This document shows positions 12,816 to 19,080 of a stretch of DNA of 64,000 nt, in pieces. The translations under genes were made by a program, and so were the position numbers. The notes beneath the pieces are model-generated. The model was not told the origin of the DNA, did no database searches, and saw only the letters and a program-made list of their open reading frames with translations. The first letter of the stretch is position 1. Every line of letters starts with the position of its first letter. Origin of the DNA: Streptomyces sp. TLI_105 (GTDB lineage Bacteria > Actinomycetota > Actinomycetes > Streptomycetales > Streptomycetaceae); assembly GCF_900105415.1 (NCBI RefSeq), contig NZ_FNSM01000001.1, forward strand, positions 1,798,001-1,862,000, given 5' to 3'.

Positions 12816-13769
12816 TCAGCCCGCCAGGCGGCTGCCGAGGCCGGCTCCGGCCACCGTCAGGTCCCTGGACGGGGAGGTGAGCGTGGAGAGGAAGACGGGC
12901 CGGCCGTCCTGCAGACCGGTGACCCGGACGGTCGCCGTCCCGGGGGCGGCGCCGGGCAGGCCCTCGGCCTCGATCCAGCACGGGCTGTCGAGTTCTGCGT
13001 ACCGCGAGAAGGAGACGTCCATGGCGGTCGGCAGGTACGCGCCGCCGCCGAGCGTCAGCGTCGCCGCCTGCCGGGCGGCTTCGAGGAGCACCATTCCCGG
13101 TATGTGGTCGTTCGGACGCCGGAAGAGAGTGGGGTGCTGGGTGTTGATCCGCAGCTGCCACTGACCGGGGCGGGTGCCCGGGGCGAGGACGACGTCCTTG
13201 GTGTGCTCGCGGCCGACCAGCCGCGGGGCCACGCCCGGGATCAGCGGAACCGGCCGGCCGAGCGCGGCCATCCGGTCGCCGCGGACCCGGCGGTAGGCCA
13301 GGGCCGAGGTGCAGCGGGCCTCGGCGCCACCCGTGGCGAGGTACCTGCCGTCCCTGGTGAGGACCATGGTGGTGCGCAGGTTGCGGAGGCCGCCGCGGCG
13401 GCTGTCGAGGTCCGAGCAGACGACGTCGACGGTGACGTCCGAGGAGAGGCCGTTCACGGCGAGCGCCTCGGCGTCGGCGGTGTAGTGGAGGCCCCACATG
13501 ACGAACTGGTCCTCGACGGGTACCCCGAATTCGGCATGAGCGACGAGCATGGTGGTCTGGCGTATCGTCTCGGCCACCAGTACGGGGTCGTGCCGGTCCC
13601 CTGCCACCGGAGAGAAGAAGGGATGTGCGGCAGGCCAGTGAGCGGAGACGGAGAACCGGTTCTCTGCCAACTGGGCCCACCCCGTGGGGATGATGTCCGC
13701 GGGATCCGCTCGGTGAACGAACTCCCCGGGGACGCGTGTGGACGTCGCTCCTCGAAAGTTCTGATCCAT
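12816..13769 (-). CDS. afsA: AfsA/ScbA-type gamma-butyrolactone synthase
   Basis: 317 aa. ATG at 13769 is preferred over the one at 13784 because AGGGGGA precedes it directly. Two hot-dog (FabA/FabZ-like) halves are visible. The first runs VHRADPADIIPTGW and HPFF to VLVAETIRQTTMLVAHAEFG with its conserved Glu. The second contains NDHIPGMVLLEAARQAA, with the Arg reported to be essential in ScbA-type enzymes. AfsA condenses a beta-ketoacyl chain from an acyl carrier with dihydroxyacetone phosphate, the first step to A-factor-type signals. First gene of a three-gene minus-strand operon, divergent from the scbR-like gene; its promoter contains an ARE-like site. Confidence 0.9.
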   Translation of the reverse strand: MDQNFRGATSTRVPGEFVHRADPADIIPTGWAQLAENRFSVSAHWPAAHPFFSPVAGDRHDPVLVAETIRQTTMLVAHAEFGVPVEDQFVMWGLHYTADAEALAVNGLSSDVTVDVVCSDLDSRRGGLRNLRTTMVLTRDGRYLATGGAEARCTSALAYRRVRGDRMAALGRPVPLIPGVAPRLVGREHTKDVVLAPGTRPGQWQLRINTQHPTLFRRPNDHIPGMVLLEAARQAATLTLGGGAYLPTAMDVSFSRYAELDSPCWIEAEGLPGAAPGTATVRVTGLQDGRPVFLSTLTSPSRDLTVAGAGLGSRLAG

Positions 13770-13818
13770 GGATCCCCCTAGCATCCCCGCGCCCCCGGGC
13801 GGCGTATCCGCCCGACCT

Positions 13819-13848
13819 AGAATACGTACAGCCCGGTTTTCTTTTCAA
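13819..13848 (-). promoter_or_regulatory. afsA promoter with ARE-like site in the spacer
   Basis: On the minus strand TTGAAA (13848-13843), an 18-base spacer and TATTCT (13824-13819) form a strong promoter for afsA. The spacer is covered by ATACGTACAGCCCGGTTT (13822-13839 on the plus strand), which shares the outer halves and length of the palindrome at 10301-10318. Receptor binding here would block afsA transcription. Confidence 0.6.
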
Positions 13849-13897
13849 TGCTTCACGTCACACCACGAGCACAGACAGCGATACAGCGGGAGGCGCC

Positions 13898-14578
13898 TTG
13901 GCGCAGCAAGCGCGTGCAATCAAGACCCGGCAGGCGATCCTGCAGTCGGCCGCGGCCGTCTTCGCCGAGCGGGGCTACGAGCGCACGACCATCGGAGAGA
14001 TCCTGGTTCGCGCGGGGGTGACCAAGGGAGCCCTCTATTTCCACTTTGCTTCCAAGGAAGACCTCGCCCTCGGCGTGCTCGACGCGCAGATGCTCGACGT
14101 CCCGCTGCCCCCGCAGGCGATAAAGCTCCAGGAGCTCGCGGACCAGGCCTTCCTGCTCGCCCACCGGCTGCAGCGCGACGCGCTCGTGCGGGCGAGCGTC
14201 GCCCTGGCCCTGGACAGCGGCGCCACCGGCGTCGACCGGGTCGCCCCGTTCCAGGCGTGGATCGACCAGGTGTCGGAGATCCTGATGGTCGCGAAGGCGC
14301 GCGGCGAGCTGCTCGTCCACGTCGACGTGACGGACACGGCCTCGCTCTTCTCGGGCGCCTTCTCCGGGGTCCAGGCAATGTCCCAGATCCTGTGCGATCG
14401 CAAAGACCTGATCCATCGCGTCTCGGTCCTGCTCCGGCACTTCATGCCGAGCATCTGTACGCCGGCGCTGCTGCCCGGACTCGGCCTGACCGAGGAGTAC
14501 GGCCGGAAGCTCGGCGCCGAGTACGACGCGAACCGGCACCGCCGGGACCAGGCGAACTTCTCGGAAACCGACGATTAA
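13898..14578 (+). CDS. scbR: Gamma-butyrolactone receptor repressor (ScbR/ArpA type)
   Basis: 226 aa. TTG at 13898 is chosen: GGGAGG lies four bases upstream and the protein then begins MAQQARAIKTRQAIL, as in ScbR/ArpA proteins. The helix-turn-helix reads IGEILVRAGVTKGALYFHFASKEDLALGVLDAQ, in which GALYFHFASKEDLA is the true-receptor form. The conserved ligand-pocket Trp occurs in FQAWID. It is head-to-head with afsA, 128 bases between starts, the classic synthase/receptor arrangement. Expected role: homodimeric repressor released from AREs by the butyrolactone. A strong terminator follows the gene. Confidence 0.9.
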   Translation: MAQQARAIKTRQAILQSAAAVFAERGYERTTIGEILVRAGVTKGALYFHFASKEDLALGVLDAQMLDVPLPPQAIKLQELADQAFLLAHRLQRDALVRASVALALDSGATGVDRVAPFQAWIDQVSEILMVAKARGELLVHVDVTDTASLFSGAFSGVQAMSQILCDRKDLIHRVSVLLRHFMPSICTPALLPGLGLTEEYGRKLGAEYDANRHRRDQANFSETDD

Positions 14579-14643: not shown

Positions 14644-14681
14644 TGGCACTGAGTGTGTTTTGCTGAGGGTACTCAGTGCCA
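14644..14681. promoter_or_regulatory. Paired operator half-sites of the acyl-CoA dehydrogenase/ETF operon
   Basis: TGGCACTGAGT (14644-14654) and ACTCAGTGCCA (14671-14681) form an 11-bp perfect inverted repeat with a 16-base spacer. Each arm is most of a 15-bp palindrome found intact at 18200-18214. The pair lies 24-61 bases upstream of the ATG, that is over the expected promoter. Confidence 0.7.
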
Positions 14682-14704
14682 AAAGCGTCTAGGGGAGCTC
14701 CATC

Positions 14705-15856
14705 ATGGGTAAGGACTTCGACCTGTATCGGCCCTCGGAGGAGCACGACATGCTCCGGGAGTCGGTGCGTGCCCTCGCGGAGGCGAAGATCGCCCCGTTC
14801 GCGGCGGCGGTGGACGAGGAGGGCCGCTTCCCGCAGGAGGCCCTGGACGCGCTGGTCGCCAACGACCTGCACGCCGTGCACGTCCCCGAGAGCTACGGCG
14901 GCGCCGGCGCGGACGCGCTGGCCACCGTGATCGTGATCGAGGAGGTCGCCCGCGCCTGCGGTTCGTCCTCGCTGATCCCGGCGGTCAACAAGCTGGGCTC
15001 GCTGCCGGTGATCCTGTCCGGCTCGGAGGAGCTGAAGAAGAAGTACCTCGGCCCGCTGGCCAAGGGCGAGGCGATGTTCTCCTACGCCCTGTCCGAGCCC
15101 GACGCCGGCTCCGACGCGGCCGGCATGAAGACCCGCGCGGTGCGCGACGGCGACTTCTGGGTCCTCAACGGCGTCAAGCGCTGGATCACCAACGCCGGCG
15201 TCTCCGAGTACTACACCGTCATGGCCGTCACCGACCCCGACAAGCGCTCCAAGGGCATCAGCGCCTTCGTGGTGGAGAAGTCCGACCAGGGCGTGTCCTT
15301 CGGCGCCCCGGAGAAGAAGCTCGGCATCAAGGGCTCCCCCACCCGCGAGGTCTACCTCGACAACGTCCGCATCCCGGCCGACCGCATGATCGGCGCCGAG
15401 GGCACCGGCTTCGCCACCGCCATGAAGACCCTCGACCACACCCGCATCACCATCGCCGCCCAGGCCCTCGGCATCGCCCAGGGCGCCCTGGACTACGCCA
15501 AGGGCTACGTCACCGAGCGCAAGCAGTTCGGCAAGCCCATCGCCGACTTCCAGGGCGTGCAGTTCATGCTCGCCGACATGGCCATGAAGCTCGAGGCCGC
15601 CCGCCAGCTCACCTACGCCGCCGCCGCGAAGTCCGAGCGGGTCGACTCCGACCTGACCTTCTTCGGCGCCGCCGCCAAGTGCTTCGCCTCCGACGTCGCC
15701 ATGGAGGTCACCACCGACGCCGTCCAGCTCCTGGGCGGTTACGGCTACACCCGCGACTACCCCGTCGAGCGCATGATGCGCGACGCCAAGATCACCCAGA
15801 TCTACGAGGGCACCAACCAGGTCCAGCGCATCGTCATGGCCCGCAACCTCCCGTAA
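14705..15856 (+). CDS. Acyl-CoA dehydrogenase
   Basis: 383 aa, ATG with AGGGGAG upstream. Full-length flavoenzyme of the acyl-CoA dehydrogenase family. It has the FAD/substrate signatures FSYALSEPDAGSDAAGMKT and RWITNAGVSEYY, the dimer/FAD segment QLLGGYGYTRDYPVERMMRD, and the catalytic Glu in IYEGTNQVQR near the C-terminus. It introduces the alpha-beta double bond of acyl-CoA in beta-oxidation and passes electrons to ETF, encoded by the next two genes. Chain-length preference cannot be read from sequence. It is the first gene of the operon and carries the paired GGCACTGAGT operators at its promoter, so the TetR at 18301-19011 is the probable repressor. Confidence 0.93.
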   Translation: MGKDFDLYRPSEEHDMLRESVRALAEAKIAPFAAAVDEEGRFPQEALDALVANDLHAVHVPESYGGAGADALATVIVIEEVARACGSSSLIPAVNKLGSLPVILSGSEELKKKYLGPLAKGEAMFSYALSEPDAGSDAAGMKTRAVRDGDFWVLNGVKRWITNAGVSEYYTVMAVTDPDKRSKGISAFVVEKSDQGVSFGAPEKKLGIKGSPTREVYLDNVRIPADRMIGAEGTGFATAMKTLDHTRITIAAQALGIAQGALDYAKGYVTERKQFGKPIADFQGVQFMLADMAMKLEAARQLTYAAAAKSERVDSDLTFFGAAAKCFASDVAMEVTTDAVQLLGGYGYTRDYPVERMMRDAKITQIYEGTNQVQRIVMARNLP

Positions 15857-15884
15857 CCACCAGCTTCTCGAAAGGAGACAGGCC

Positions 15885-16670
15885 GTGACCCTGAAGATCG
15901 CTGTCTGTGTGAAGTACGTCCCCGACGCGACCGGCGACCGCGGTTTCGCCGACGACCTGACGACCGACCGCGAGGCCGTCGACGGGCTGCTGTCGGAGCT
16001 CGACGAGTACGCGGTCGAGCAGGCCCTCCGCATCTCGGAGGAGTCCGACGACGCCGAGGTCACCGTCGTGACGGTCGGCCCGGACGACGCCAAGGACGCG
16101 CTGCGCAAGGCGCTGTCGATGGGCGCCGACAAGGCCGTCCACGTCAACGACGACGACATCCACGGCTCCGACGTCATCGCCACCTCCGCGATCCTGGCCA
16201 AGGCCCTGGAGAAGACCGGCTTCGACCTGGTCGTCTGCGGCATGGCCTCGACCGACGGCACGATGGGCGTCCTGCCCGCGCTGCTCGCCGAGCGCCTGAG
16301 CCTGCCGCAGGTCACCCTGCTGTCGGAGCTCTCCGTCGAGGACGGTGTCGTGAAGGGCCGCCGTGACGGCGACGCCGCCACCGAGCTCCTGGAGGCCCCG
16401 CTGCCGGCCGTCGCCTCGGTCACCGACCAGTCCGGCGAGGCCCGTTACCCCTCCTTCAAGGGGATCATGGCCGCCAAGAAGAAGCCGGTCGAGGAGCTGG
16501 ACCTGGACGACCTGGGGATCGACGCCGACGAGGTCGGCCTCGCCGGGTCCTGGACCCTGGTCGACGCCGTGGCCGCCCGCCCGGCCCGCACCCAGGGCAC
16601 GATCGTCACGGACGAGGGCGACGGCGGCAAGCAGCTCGCCGCCTTCCTCACCACCCAGAAGTTCATCTGA
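15885..16670 (+). CDS. etfB: Electron transfer flavoprotein beta subunit
   Basis: 261 aa, GTG start with AAGGAG nine bases upstream, 28 bases after the acyl-CoA dehydrogenase stop. The opening MTLKIAVCVKYVPDA and the ETF signature VCGMASTDGTMGVLPALLAERLS (in parts: GMASTDGTMGVLPALLAE) identify the AMP-binding beta subunit (FixA). With the alpha subunit it shuttles electrons from acyl-CoA dehydrogenases to the respiratory chain through an ETF:quinone oxidoreductase, which is not encoded here. Length is standard. Confidence 0.93.
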   Translation: MTLKIAVCVKYVPDATGDRGFADDLTTDREAVDGLLSELDEYAVEQALRISEESDDAEVTVVTVGPDDAKDALRKALSMGADKAVHVNDDDIHGSDVIATSAILAKALEKTGFDLVVCGMASTDGTMGVLPALLAERLSLPQVTLLSELSVEDGVVKGRRDGDAATELLEAPLPAVASVTDQSGEARYPSFKGIMAAKKKPVEELDLDDLGIDADEVGLAGSWTLVDAVAARPARTQGTIVTDEGDGGKQLAAFLTTQKFI

Positions 16671-16703
16671 CCCACCGTCACACCACCTCAGGAGCAAGGA
16701 ATC

Positions 16704-17660
16704 ATGGCTGAGATCCTGGTTCTCGTGGACCACGCCGACGGTGCGGTCCGCAAGCCCGCCCTCGAACTGCTGACCCTGGCCCGCCGCATCGGCGAGCCCT
16801 CGGCGGTCGTCCTCGGCGCCGGCGAGGCCGCCGCCTCGATCGCCGCCACGGCCGGCGAGTACGGCGCGGCCACCGTGTACGTCGCGGACGGCGCCGAGTT
16901 CACCGAGCAGCTCGTCGTCCCGAAGGTCGACGCGCTCACCCAGCTCGCCCAGGAGAAGGGGGCGGCCGCCGTCCTGGTGACCTCCTCCGGCGAGGGCAAG
17001 GAGATCGCGGCCCGTGTCGCGCTCCGCCTCGGCTCCGGTCTGATCACCGACGCCGTCGAGCTGGAGGCCGGTGACAAGGGTCCGGTCGCCACCCAGTCCG
17101 TCTTCGCCGCCTCGTACCAGGTGAAGTCCACGGTCTCGCACGGCGTCCCGGTCATCACCGTGAAGCCGAACTCCGCCGCCCCGGAGGCCGCTCCGGCCGC
17201 CGGCACGGTCGAGAACGTCACCGTCGCCTTCACCGGCAACGCCGCCAAGGTCGTCTCGCGCACCCCGCGCGTCTCCACCGGCCGCCCCGAGCTGACCGAG
17301 TCCGCGATCGTGGTCTCCGGCGGCCGCGGTGTCGGCGCCGCCGAGGGCTTCGCGGTCGTCGAGAAGCTCGCCGACTCGCTCGGCGCGGCGGTCGGCGCCT
17401 CCCGGGCCGCCGTGGACGCCGGCTGGTACCCGCACTCCAACCAGGTCGGCCAGACCGGCAAGCAGGTCTCGCCGCAGCTGTACGTGGCGGCGGGCATCTC
17501 CGGCGCGATCCAGCACCGGGCGGGCATGCAGACCTCGAAGACGATCGTCGCGGTCAACAAGGACCCCGAGGCCCCGATCTTCGACCTGGTCGACTACGGG
17601 GTGGTCGGCGACCTCTTCGAGGTGCTGCCGCAGCTGACGGACGAGATCGGCGCGCGCTGA
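16704..17660 (+). CDS. etfA: Electron transfer flavoprotein alpha subunit
   Basis: 318 aa, ATG preceded by AGGAGCAAGGA. N-terminal domain I (AEILVLVDHADG). The FAD-binding C-terminal domain carries RPELTESAIVVSGGRGVG, then YPHSNQVGQTGKQVSPQLYVAAGISG and HRAGMQTSKTIVAVNKDPEAPIF; these are the diagnostic ETF-alpha (FixB) motifs. It forms a heterodimer with the preceding beta subunit and is the last gene of the acyl-CoA dehydrogenase operon, followed by two hairpins. Confidence 0.93.
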   Translation: MAEILVLVDHADGAVRKPALELLTLARRIGEPSAVVLGAGEAAASIAATAGEYGAATVYVADGAEFTEQLVVPKVDALTQLAQEKGAAAVLVTSSGEGKEIAARVALRLGSGLITDAVELEAGDKGPVATQSVFAASYQVKSTVSHGVPVITVKPNSAAPEAAPAAGTVENVTVAFTGNAAKVVSRTPRVSTGRPELTESAIVVSGGRGVGAAEGFAVVEKLADSLGAAVGASRAAVDAGWYPHSNQVGQTGKQVSPQLYVAAGISGAIQHRAGMQTSKTIVAVNKDPEAPIFDLVDYGVVGDLFEVLPQLTDEIGAR

Positions 17661-17671
17661 TCCGGTGACGG

Positions 17672-17697
17672 GCGGGATCGGCACGCGCCGATCCCGC
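17672..17697 (+). terminator. First hairpin after etfA
   Basis: GCGGGATCGGC and its complement form an 11-bp stem around the 4-base loop ACGC, 11 bases after the etfA stop. Confidence 0.65.
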
Positions 17698-17708
17698 GGC
17701 CGGAGAAA

Positions 17709-17745
17709 GAAGGGGCGGGTGGCACTCTGTGCCACCCGCCCCTTC
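17709..17745. terminator. Very strong bidirectional terminator between etfA and the DUF35 gene
   Basis: GAAGGGGCGGGTGGCAC pairs perfectly over 17 bp with its complement around the loop TCT. It carries A-rich and C/T-rich flanks and sits between two convergent genes. Confidence 0.88.
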
Positions 17746-17765
17746 CTCGTGTACGCGCCCGGCGC

Positions 17766-18149
17766 TCAGTACCAGCCGTCGAGCGGGACCTCCTCGCAGA
17801 GCCGCACGACCGGCCTGCGCCCGGCGGAGGCGGTGCCGGAGAGCTTGACCCGGGCCCCGGGGCGCACCGCGTGCAGCGGTCCGTCGACGCGGCAGCGGAC
17901 GACGAAGCCCTCCGTCATGTGGACCGGCCAGAGGTCGGCGTCGGCGGCCGCGACCCCGCGCCGTACGGATATCACGCCCTCGCCCCCGCTGAGTTCGGGC
18001 GCCAGGTCGGTCGACCCGCAGGTCGGGCAGAGCAGACGCTGGAACGTCGTGGTGTGGCACCAGCGGCAGCGCTGGAAGTACAGCTCGGACTCGGGGGCCG
18101 ACTCCTCGGCCTGGACGGCGGTCCCGCTCCTCATTCCCGTGTGGAACAC
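17766..18149 (-). CDS. Zn-ribbon/OB-fold DUF35-type protein
   Basis: 127 aa. GTG at 18149 is chosen because AAGGAG lies eight bases upstream; the ATG codons further upstream fall inside the operator palindrome and would give an unusual N-terminal extension. Residues ~25-45 form a zinc ribbon (CRWCH...CPTC). The remainder is an OB-fold with the usual DUF35 pattern GEGVISVRRGVA and GARVKLSG. Such proteins partner with thiolases or acyl-CoA-binding enzymes in lipid metabolism. Here the promoter carries the intact TGGCACTGAGTGCCA palindrome, which links it to the acyl-CoA dehydrogenase/ETF operon. Partner enzyme unknown. Confidence 0.82.
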   Translation of the reverse strand: MFHTGMRSGTAVQAEESAPESELYFQRCRWCHTTTFQRLLCPTCGSTDLAPELSGGEGVISVRRGVAAADADLWPVHMTEGFVVRCRVDGPLHAVRPGARVKLSGTASAGRRPVVRLCEEVPLDGWY

Positions 18150-18199
18150 GATGCCTTCTCCTTGCACTCGGCGGCTCGACCGTGCATGGAGCAAAGATA

Positions 18200-18214
18200 T
18201 GGCACTGAGTGCCA
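18200..18214. promoter_or_regulatory. Intact operator palindrome upstream of the DUF35 gene
   Basis: TGGCACTGAGTGCCA is a perfect 7-1-7 palindrome, about 50 bases upstream of the GTG start and in an AT-richer stretch likely to hold the promoter. It defines the motif shared with 14644-14681 and 19043-19080. Confidence 0.75.
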
Positions 18215-18300
18215 TCAAATAAAGACCTGAGTTCCCTCAATTCGAGATACCGAGAACCCTGAGGCCATTCGGTGACCCTCCGGAGATCCCCCGGTGACCC

Positions 18301-19011
18301 TCAGCCCTCGCCGAGGCTCGACTCCACCTCGCGCACCACGCGCCACATGGGGGTGGAGCGCTTGGTGATCACCACGACGACGTCCTCGGCCTCCTCGGCC
18401 GGTGCGTCCGTCGCCTGGCCGCCGGTGGCCCAGGTGGCGCGGACGAACTCCAGGGCCCCGTCGACCTCGGCCAGCGGGTCGCCCTCGCCGCCCGAGCGCA
18501 GCCAGTGCCGCAGGGCGTGGTTGTGGGCGGCGACCACGGCCGCCGCGACGACGTTGGCGCGCAGGGTGCCGTCCCTGCGGTCGGCCCAGCGGGTGCGCAG
18601 GTAGTCGCCGAGGGTCTTCTCGTACCGCCAGACCACCGACAGCTCGTACGTGCGCAGTCCGGCCACCTCGCGGGTGAGCCGGTAGCGCTGCACGGAGAAG
18701 GTGGGGTTCTCGGCGTACATCCGCATGACGAGCCGGGCGGCGTCGCAGACCCGGACCACCGGGTCGTCGGAGTCGGCGCTCGCGGCGAGGAAGCGGGTCA
18801 TGTCGGCGAGGCACTGCTCGTGGTCGGGGAAGACCACGTCCTCCTTGGACGGGAAGTACCGGAAGAAGGACCGCCGGCCGACGCCCGCGAGCGTGACGAT
18901 GTCGTCGACGGTGGTCTGCTCGTAGCCCCGCTCCAGGAAGAGCTGGAAGGCCGCGGCGATGAGGGAGTCCCGCATCGCGGGCTTCGTGGAGTTCGTCGAG
19001 GCTGTTCCCAT
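18301..19011 (-). CDS. TetR-family regulator, probable repressor of the acyl-CoA dehydrogenase/ETF regulon
   Basis: 236 aa, ATG start. Helix-turn-helix at residues ~15-60: AFQLFLERGYEQTTVDDIVTLAGVGRRSFFRYFPSKEDVV, recognition part GVGRRSFFRYFPSKED. The C-terminal domain is helical, with a ~30-residue acidic tail after residue 205. Two copies of the shared palindrome lie in its own upstream region (19043-19057 and 19066-19080), as expected of an autoregulated TetR. The same motif precedes the acyl-CoA dehydrogenase and DUF35 genes. I infer a local repressor of fatty-acid oxidation, probably relieved by an acyl-CoA. Confidence 0.82.
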   Translation of the reverse strand: MGTASTNSTKPAMRDSLIAAAFQLFLERGYEQTTVDDIVTLAGVGRRSFFRYFPSKEDVVFPDHEQCLADMTRFLAASADSDDPVVRVCDAARLVMRMYAENPTFSVQRYRLTREVAGLRTYELSVVWRYEKTLGDYLRTRWADRRDGTLRANVVAAAVVAAHNHALRHWLRSGGEGDPLAEVDGALEFVRATWATGGQATDAPAEEAEDVVVVITKRSTPMWRVVREVESSLGEG

Positions 19012-19042
19012 GGCCCGAACCTAACACCCCGGCGCCCCGCTG

Positions 19043-19080
19043 CGGCACTAGGTGCCGGAGAAATCCGGCACCGAGTGCTT
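19043..19080. promoter_or_regulatory. Two tandem operator copies upstream of the tetR
   Basis: CGGCACTAGGTGCCG (19043-19057) and CGGCACCGAGTGCTT (19066-19080) are variants of TGGCACTGAGTGCCA; their centres are 23 bases apart, about two helical turns. They lie between the SDR stop and the tetR start. Confidence 0.65.

Follow-up and report, generated by a model that had tools for sequence, protein, structure and literature searches.

A palindrome shared by a TetR/DUF35/acyl-CoA dehydrogenase locus and acetyl-CoA assimilation genes of Streptomyces: a putative operator of two MftR-like regulators

Palindromes at three promoters of the tetR1 locus

The window analyzed here is a whole stretch of 64,000 nucleotides from Streptomyces sp. 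TLI_105 (contig NZ_FNSM01000001.1, positions 1,798,001 to 1,862,000), and our subject is a 15-base-pair (bp) palindrome within it, TGGCACTNAGTGCCA, with the predicted operator core TGGCAC-N3-GTGCCA. The palindrome and paired variants of it precede the operon of an acyl-CoA dehydrogenase (ACAD) and the electron transfer flavoprotein (ETF) subunits EtfB and EtfA, the gene of a DUF35-type protein, and a tetR gene, here called tetR1 (Table 1). An earlier reading made from the letters of the window (the sequence-only reading) held that the palindrome is intact before the DUF35 gene, with inverted half-copies over the ACAD promoter and two variants before tetR1, and we recovered all of these. The copy at 18200-18214 is the exact palindrome (TGGCACTGAGTGCCA); the ACAD promoter carries two 15-mers, TGGCACTGAGTGTGT and GGGTACTCAGTGCCA, 23 bp apart and each made of one good arm and one degenerate arm; and the tetR1 promoter carries CGGCACTAGGTGCCG and CGGCACCGAGTGCTT, also 23 bp apart.

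Allowing up to three mismatches to the consensus, we counted eight matches on the two strands of the window against 1.53 expected, a number reached in one of 100 shuffles. The window was also scored with a full matrix built from eight promoter groups (threshold at least 11.5) and with a non-local matrix built only from the promoters of citrate synthase, malate synthase, pyruvate phosphate dikinase (PPDK), CoA-transferase and ccr in the same genome and its relatives. The full matrix gave seven sites at or above the threshold, every one within 14644-19080; 60 simulated windows with identical dinucleotide frequencies averaged 0.8 sites and never exceeded four. The non-local matrix placed the same seven sites first in the window, and all five sites of the sequence-only reading are among them. 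An additional site, TGGCACTCTGTGCCA, absent from the sequence-only reading, lies at the tip of the terminator between etfA and the DUF35 gene. The seventh, at 17760, is the coding end of the DUF35 gene (GWY-stop); it scores above 10 in only three of 39 relatives, with a weak match elsewhere in a fourth, and was treated as a chance match.

About 20 bp past the end of the proximal tetR1 site, on the downstream side, is the hexamer TAGGTT (19023-19018); its position six bases ahead of the ATG suggests a leaderless transcript. This placing, and the abutment of the DUF35 site on the hexamer TATCTT, both fit repression. A promoter consensus scan gave no match.

Table 1. Genes and predicted sites of the tetR1 locus (window coordinates).
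Feature	Position	Strand	Remarks
Distal operator (predicted), ACAD-etfBA promoter, TGGCACTGAGTGTGT	14644..14658	+	matrix score 13.9
Proximal operator (predicted), ACAD-etfBA promoter, GGGTACTCAGTGCCA	14667..14681	+	matrix score 19.6
Acyl-CoA dehydrogenase (ACAD)	14705..15856	+	Pfam Acyl-CoA_dh_1/N/M
Electron transfer flavoprotein beta (EtfB)	15885..16670	+	Pfam ETF
Electron transfer flavoprotein alpha (EtfA)	16704..17660	+	Pfam ETF_alpha, ETF
Terminator-like hairpin, convergent etfA/DUF35	17709..17745	.	17-pair stem, 3-base loop; -42.2 kcal/mol, z -6.75
Operator-like 15-mer at hairpin tip, TGGCACTCTGTGCCA	17720..17734	.	matrix score 19.2
DUF35-type zinc-ribbon protein, 127 aa	17766..18149	-	Pfam zf-ChsH2 29.3 bits, cut-off 23.2
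Predicted DUF35-promoter operator, perfect palindrome	18200..18214	.	adjoins TATCTT hexamer 18199-18194
tetR1, MftR-like TetR regulator, 236 aa	18301..19011	-	Pfam TetR_N, TetR_C_14
Proximal operator (predicted), tetR1 promoter, CGGCACTAGGTGCCG	19043..19057	.	matrix score 12.8
Distal operator (predicted), tetR1 promoter, CGGCACCGAGTGCTT	19066..19080	.	matrix score 11.8

Conservation of the sites in orthologous loci

We compared 80 loci holding TetR1 orthologues, 17 of which cover the ACAD start. A DUF35-promoter site lies between tetR and the DUF35 gene in 74 of the 80 loci (67 exact, seven with one mismatch); the remaining six divide into three that run out at or close to tetR (L040, L041 and L042) and three without a DUF35 match (L043, L044 and L049). 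At the tetR1 promoter, the first site is joined by another 22-23 bp away in 77/80 loci, this second site scoring above 5 in 73, and the ACAD promoter beside the TetR orthologue has the pair at 23 bp in 17/17 covered loci, the pair being weaker in two Kitasatospora loci (L044 and L049). At the DUF35 promoter, the highest-scoring companion site stands 22 bp off in 35 of the 74 loci and is weak in the window's own clade. The recurrence of the sites in orthologous promoters supports the claim that the three local promoters carry one operator.

To this we added a comparison of 22 close ACAD copies from 20 genomes of our choosing, a set that does not include the window's own genome. Both TetR1-linked copies (L305 and L318) carry the pair and none of the 20 others do; the top single match among the unlinked copies scores 7.6 (two copies). 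A core ACAD 90-95% identical to that of the window was found in all 20 genomes (L305-L326), and the genomes of L305 and L318 hold both ACAD copies, with EtfB not beside ACAD there. The window's ACAD is likely to be a regulated copy additional to a core ACAD, by extension from a comparison that lies outside its own genome. Many draft contigs stop just within the ACAD operon, perhaps owing to a repeat. The presence of the pair in the regulator's own promoter, and before ACAD only in TetR1-linked copies, makes TetR1 a natural candidate for the binder, as the sequence-only reading had suggested.

That reading had also described the DUF35 protein, an OB-fold protein with no thiolase partner, as an unexplained member of the group. 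The DUF35 gene is the usual neighbour of TetR1 even in loci without ACAD-ETF and is therefore not a stray member. No thiolase was found among the ten scanned proteins between 12816 and 21298. The protein has two CxxC pairs of a zinc ribbon, with C41 and C44 invariant and C28 and C31 present in at least 90% of 31 aligned rows. It has no Pfam OB-fold match; some of its relatives are called Zn-ribbon OB-fold proteins by their sources.

Two related TetR regulators

TetR1 contains the TetR helix-turn-helix domain TetR_N (PF00440; 58 bits, cut-off 24) and a marginal match to TetR_C_14, the MftR C-terminal domain (23.7 bits, cut-off 22.7). Its predicted structure (pLDDT 88) is an all-helical TetR fold, and the structures ranked highest against this model are TetR proteins with whole-chain TM scores of 0.4-0.6 by query length. 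The nearest solved structures are 2rae, SCO0337, MftR (8x0a) and SCO3201.

The same genome encodes a paralogue, TetR2, flanked on one side by a 3-hydroxyacyl-CoA dehydrogenase-like gene and on the other by ccr; the genes that follow are, as we take them from sequence resemblance, meaA-like, citE-like and mcd-like. After trimming, TetR2 shares 49% identity with TetR1, and relatives falling in the identity band of 44-49% in searches were assigned to TetR2 in each genome. The recognition helices of TetR1 and TetR2 are nearly alike (GVGRRSFFRYF and GVARRTFFRHF), and TetR2 also matches the MftR structure by sequence. By this assignment, TetR1 is present in 36 and TetR2 in 60 of 61 Streptomyces genomes.

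Several smaller observations concern these proteins. Residues 205-236 of TetR1 and the C-terminus of TetR2 form similar tails (DVVVVITKRSTPMWRVV, DVVVAVARTDAPLDEVM) past the usual TetR domain, and the tail of TetR1 is a helix in the predicted model. Other TetR genes (L085, L086, L288 and L290) have variant palindromes near their starts (TGGCACAGACTGCCA, TGCCACTGAGTGGCA, TGTCACCGAGTGTCA), and a recognition helix similar to that of TetR1 and TetR2 was seen in L085, L086 and L288. In the few cases of TetRs with KR for RR ahead of FFRYF, TGTCAC or TGCCAC seems to occur near their own start (L288, L086); from these sequences, the KR substitution may alter the third operator letter. A record titled Microtetraspora glauca (L021) holds a Streptomyces-like copy of the locus with a TetR 89% identical and is possibly a mislabelled genome.

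Sites across the genus

We surveyed the 61 Streptomyces genomes for the exact motif, with the reversed pattern as a control. The motif was found 54 times, spread over 39 genomes, and the reversed pattern twice. Four places take 52 of the 54 perfect sites, namely the PPDK promoter (20), the TetR1/DUF35 locus (18), the isocitrate lyase/RamB-like promoter (8) and the CoA-transferase promoter (6), with two sites elsewhere. Three of the four lie outside the TetR1 locus. In L228 and L229 the gene of a RamB-like XRE regulator is divergent to isocitrate lyase, with a perfect motif between the two.

Promoters of relatives gave a similar picture. A conserved variant stands at -67/-68 before citrate synthase in 17/17, malate synthase has one or more sites in 15 of 16 promoters and a second one in 14, and PPDK has a site in 17/17, 263-350 bp before the start. 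No site was found before eight distant Streptomyces malate synthases (L198-L205), two of which (G005 and G016) follow an isocitrate lyase gene that has the site in its promoter. Outside the genus, sites were absent from the promoters of two citrate synthases, two malate synthases and nine PPDK genes.

The ccr neighbourhood was inspected in 18 TetR2 loci. A pair exactly 22 bp apart precedes ccr in 15 of them, including that of the window's genome. A further 12 loci from the TetR2 search (L119-L130) are those of weaker relatives: L130 belongs to genome G008, ten of the others to a different family of the order and one to a third family. None of the 12 has a core within two mismatches except L120 (two mismatches).

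Cross-reading of the surveys shows 16 perfect sites spread over 13 genomes among the 25 that lack a TetR1 match, and TetR1 therefore cannot be the sole binder. The sequence-only reading had portrayed the TetR, its own promoter and the two flanking lipid genes as a closed local circuit. This is not supported, since the motif marks acetyl-CoA assimilation genes throughout the genus, also in genomes without a TetR1 match; judged from the genomes, the supposed circuit looks like one part of a far wider regulatory network.

A proposed shared operator for two regulators

We consider it likely that two paralogous MftR-like TetRs share one operator, with TetR2 serving a genus-wide acetyl-CoA assimilation regulon and TetR1 serving itself, DUF35 and the linked ACAD. 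The sites, their pairing and conservation, the genes downstream and the paralogy of the regulators are read directly from the DNA. In the proposed mechanism, TetR1 would occupy the site pairs of its own and the ACAD-etfBA promoters, each spaced by two helical turns, together with the strong DUF35 site, thereby repressing tetR1, DUF35 and ACAD-etfBA; a spacing of about two turns would suit a pair of dimers lying on the same side of the helix. Both repressors would probably be released by acyl-CoAs, TetR1 by one that signals the breakdown of fat or acetate, a suggestion drawn from MftR and from the genes controlled. TetR2 would act on the same site to control the ethylmalonyl-CoA pathway, citrate synthase, malate synthase, isocitrate lyase, PPDK and CoA-transferase, and it is the simplest candidate for the sites in genomes without TetR1.

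Several findings weigh against this proposal, and others were set aside as weak. Relaxed matches in the window's own genome do not exceed the reversed-pattern control, either at up to two mismatches (12 motif, 17 control) or at up to three (134 and 194), so that single weak sites prove little. By crude gene calling, nine of 12 motif sites lie outside genes, compared to five of the ten control sites examined out of 17, a difference that we set aside as weak. The CoA-transferase promoter has the site in only 5/16 rows, and three of the 18 TetR2 loci (L106, L114 and L117) lack the ccr pair, one of them (G014) having ccr elsewhere with the pair present there. Genome G039 has a perfect site at a DUF35 gene (G039:C1:3702313, L150) but no TetR1 match at E 1e-35. 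In genome G008, which matched neither TetR1 nor TetR2, the sites of citrate synthase, malate synthase and PPDK are kept; the start of its ccr is 174 bases away from the edge of a contig, where TetR2 may be missing. The best NCBIfam model for TetR1 is MftR (TIGR03968), at 91.2 bits far below the cut-off of 224.9. Binding, repression, ligand and the allotment of targets are all proposed from sequence, and the last amounts to a guess, since both paralogues fit the site.

Across Streptomyces, the motif precedes major genes of growth on acetate and fats. The ethylmalonyl-CoA, glyoxylate and related pathways feed the extender units of polyketide antibiotics. With one operator and two candidate repressors, the question of control becomes directly testable. 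Among the open-licence literature matches listed, there was no joint regulator of the ethylmalonyl-CoA pathway, glyoxylate enzymes, citrate synthase and PPDK in Streptomyces, and the portions of those texts at hand do not name the motif or the TetR1 and TetR2 regulons.

An operator-like sequence in the terminator

The 15-mer at the tip of the etfA/DUF35 hairpin looks like a putative operator inside a terminator. We compared the hairpin in the 39 loci with both etfA and DUF35 (L001-L039), which are mutually related and do not amount to 39 independent cases. The tip TGGCAC-N3-GTGCCA is present in 39/39; the search pattern fixed the tip, yet no two-gene locus dropped out because of it. The tip may be nothing other than part of an RNA hairpin, a contender that we place just short of an even prospect, given that the 15-mer sits within a 17-pair hairpin and that its centre departs from the TNA of the operators in 38 of the 39 relatives, being AGA or TCT in 37. 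This sits poorly with the identity of the six tip pairs in every locus while stem pairs 9-21 vary with compensating changes and the flanks average 49% identity. A terminator pattern scan, which needs a T run, did not list the hairpin.

More tentatively, and with a chance that we would set somewhat under even, the acetyl-CoA regulon may consist of a single operator read by the two MftR-like TetRs, with one copy in the tip of a two-way terminator. A repressor bound there might couple its action on the promoters to either side with termination, convergent transcription or DNA looping.

Other candidate binders

It is unlikely, if still worth weighing, that the genus-wide sites are bound chiefly by a third regulator from outside the TetR family, such as one of the IclR type. 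In E. coli, IclR recognizes TGGAAATNATTTCCA, a site in the same frame as our motif, and controls glyoxylate genes. Targets and frame are thus alike, and the sites kept in G008 with neither TetR matched would suit such a binder; the G008 gap, however, falls at a contig edge. A binder of this type is also at odds with the site pair in 77 of the 80 tetR1 promoters, with the sites between TetR2 and ccr, and with the same-frame sites published for three TetR proteins (MftR, SCO3201 and SCO7222, described below in the parts available), which support a TetR as the binder.

We regard as improbable a closed circuit in which TetR1 controls only itself, DUF35 and ACAD-ETF while the distant sites belong to something else. 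The restriction of the ACAD pair to TetR1-linked copies and the 25/61 genomes without a TetR1 match would agree with it, but nearly all perfect sites fall at four places of which three are outside the locus, and a matrix built from other promoters recovers the local sites. CIRCE elements of the heat-shock repressor HrcA have the form GCACTC-N9-GAGTGC, and the half-site GGCACT resembles the CIRCE half, but we rejected this identity on spacing as having practically no chance, because the palindrome centre is one base and not nine, the pairs are 22-23 bp apart and the targets are carbon genes.

Relation to known systems

The shared operator proposed for TetR1 and TetR2 has partial counterparts elsewhere. 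CcrR of Methylobacterium extorquens is reportedly, by its title, a TetR-family activator of an ethylmalonyl-CoA pathway gene; the family is that of TetR2 and the pathway is one proposed for TetR2, a likeness taken from the title.

The papers cited from here on were available in part, and our comparisons are limited to those parts. MftR of mycobacteria binds T-N2-GGCA-N5-TGCC-N2-A and has long-chain acyl-CoAs as effectors (PMC8728441). TetR1 resembles it in the TetR fold, TetR_C_14 and the proposed link to acyl-CoA, and TGGCACTGAGTGCCA contains its operator core GGCA-N5-TGCC (PMC8728441). It differs in its family score (91 of the 224.9 required), in targets here that are acyl-CoA and acetate genes, and in site pairs 22-23 bp apart. 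SCO7222, a TetR of S. coelicolor, has a 15-bp site, TGGAACGNCGTTCCA, with three published copies (PMC3511530); compared by site only, it has the frame of TGGCACTNAGTGCCA with different inner letters. The published site of SCO3201, another S. coelicolor TetR that is reported to affect many targets on over-expression, is TGGCAGATTCTGCCA (PMC7324645), and its outer arms are the same as those of the motif with a different centre; it is a different protein. SCO6474, which stands beside the FadB-like SCO6475, may be TetR2. In the text seen it has a single mention, with unchanged expression (PMC7324645).

TetR control of acyl-CoA supply includes AccR, PccD, SAV7471 and others, and such sites as are given differ from the motif (PMC10933834). 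AccR of Streptomyces represses short-chain acyl-CoA genes from the site GTTAA-N6-TTAAC, and SAV7471 is likewise a TetR for acyl-CoA genes (PMC10933834). AccR shares with TetR1 and TetR2 the tie to acyl-CoA genes, but has another site and other genes. RamB of Paracoccus denitrificans has CoA-ester ligands and two binding boxes and joins the glyoxylate cycle to the ethylmalonyl-CoA pathway; in the available text its sites are described alongside ScfR-type sites and not TetR sites (PMC10370305).

Neighbouring genes

Directly upstream of the ACAD operon, at 12816-14578, lies a gamma-butyrolactone pair consisting of a ScbA/AfsA-type synthase and a ScbR-type receptor. Both proteins exceed their NCBIfam cut-offs, and the position of the pair upstream of ACAD is kept in several relatives.

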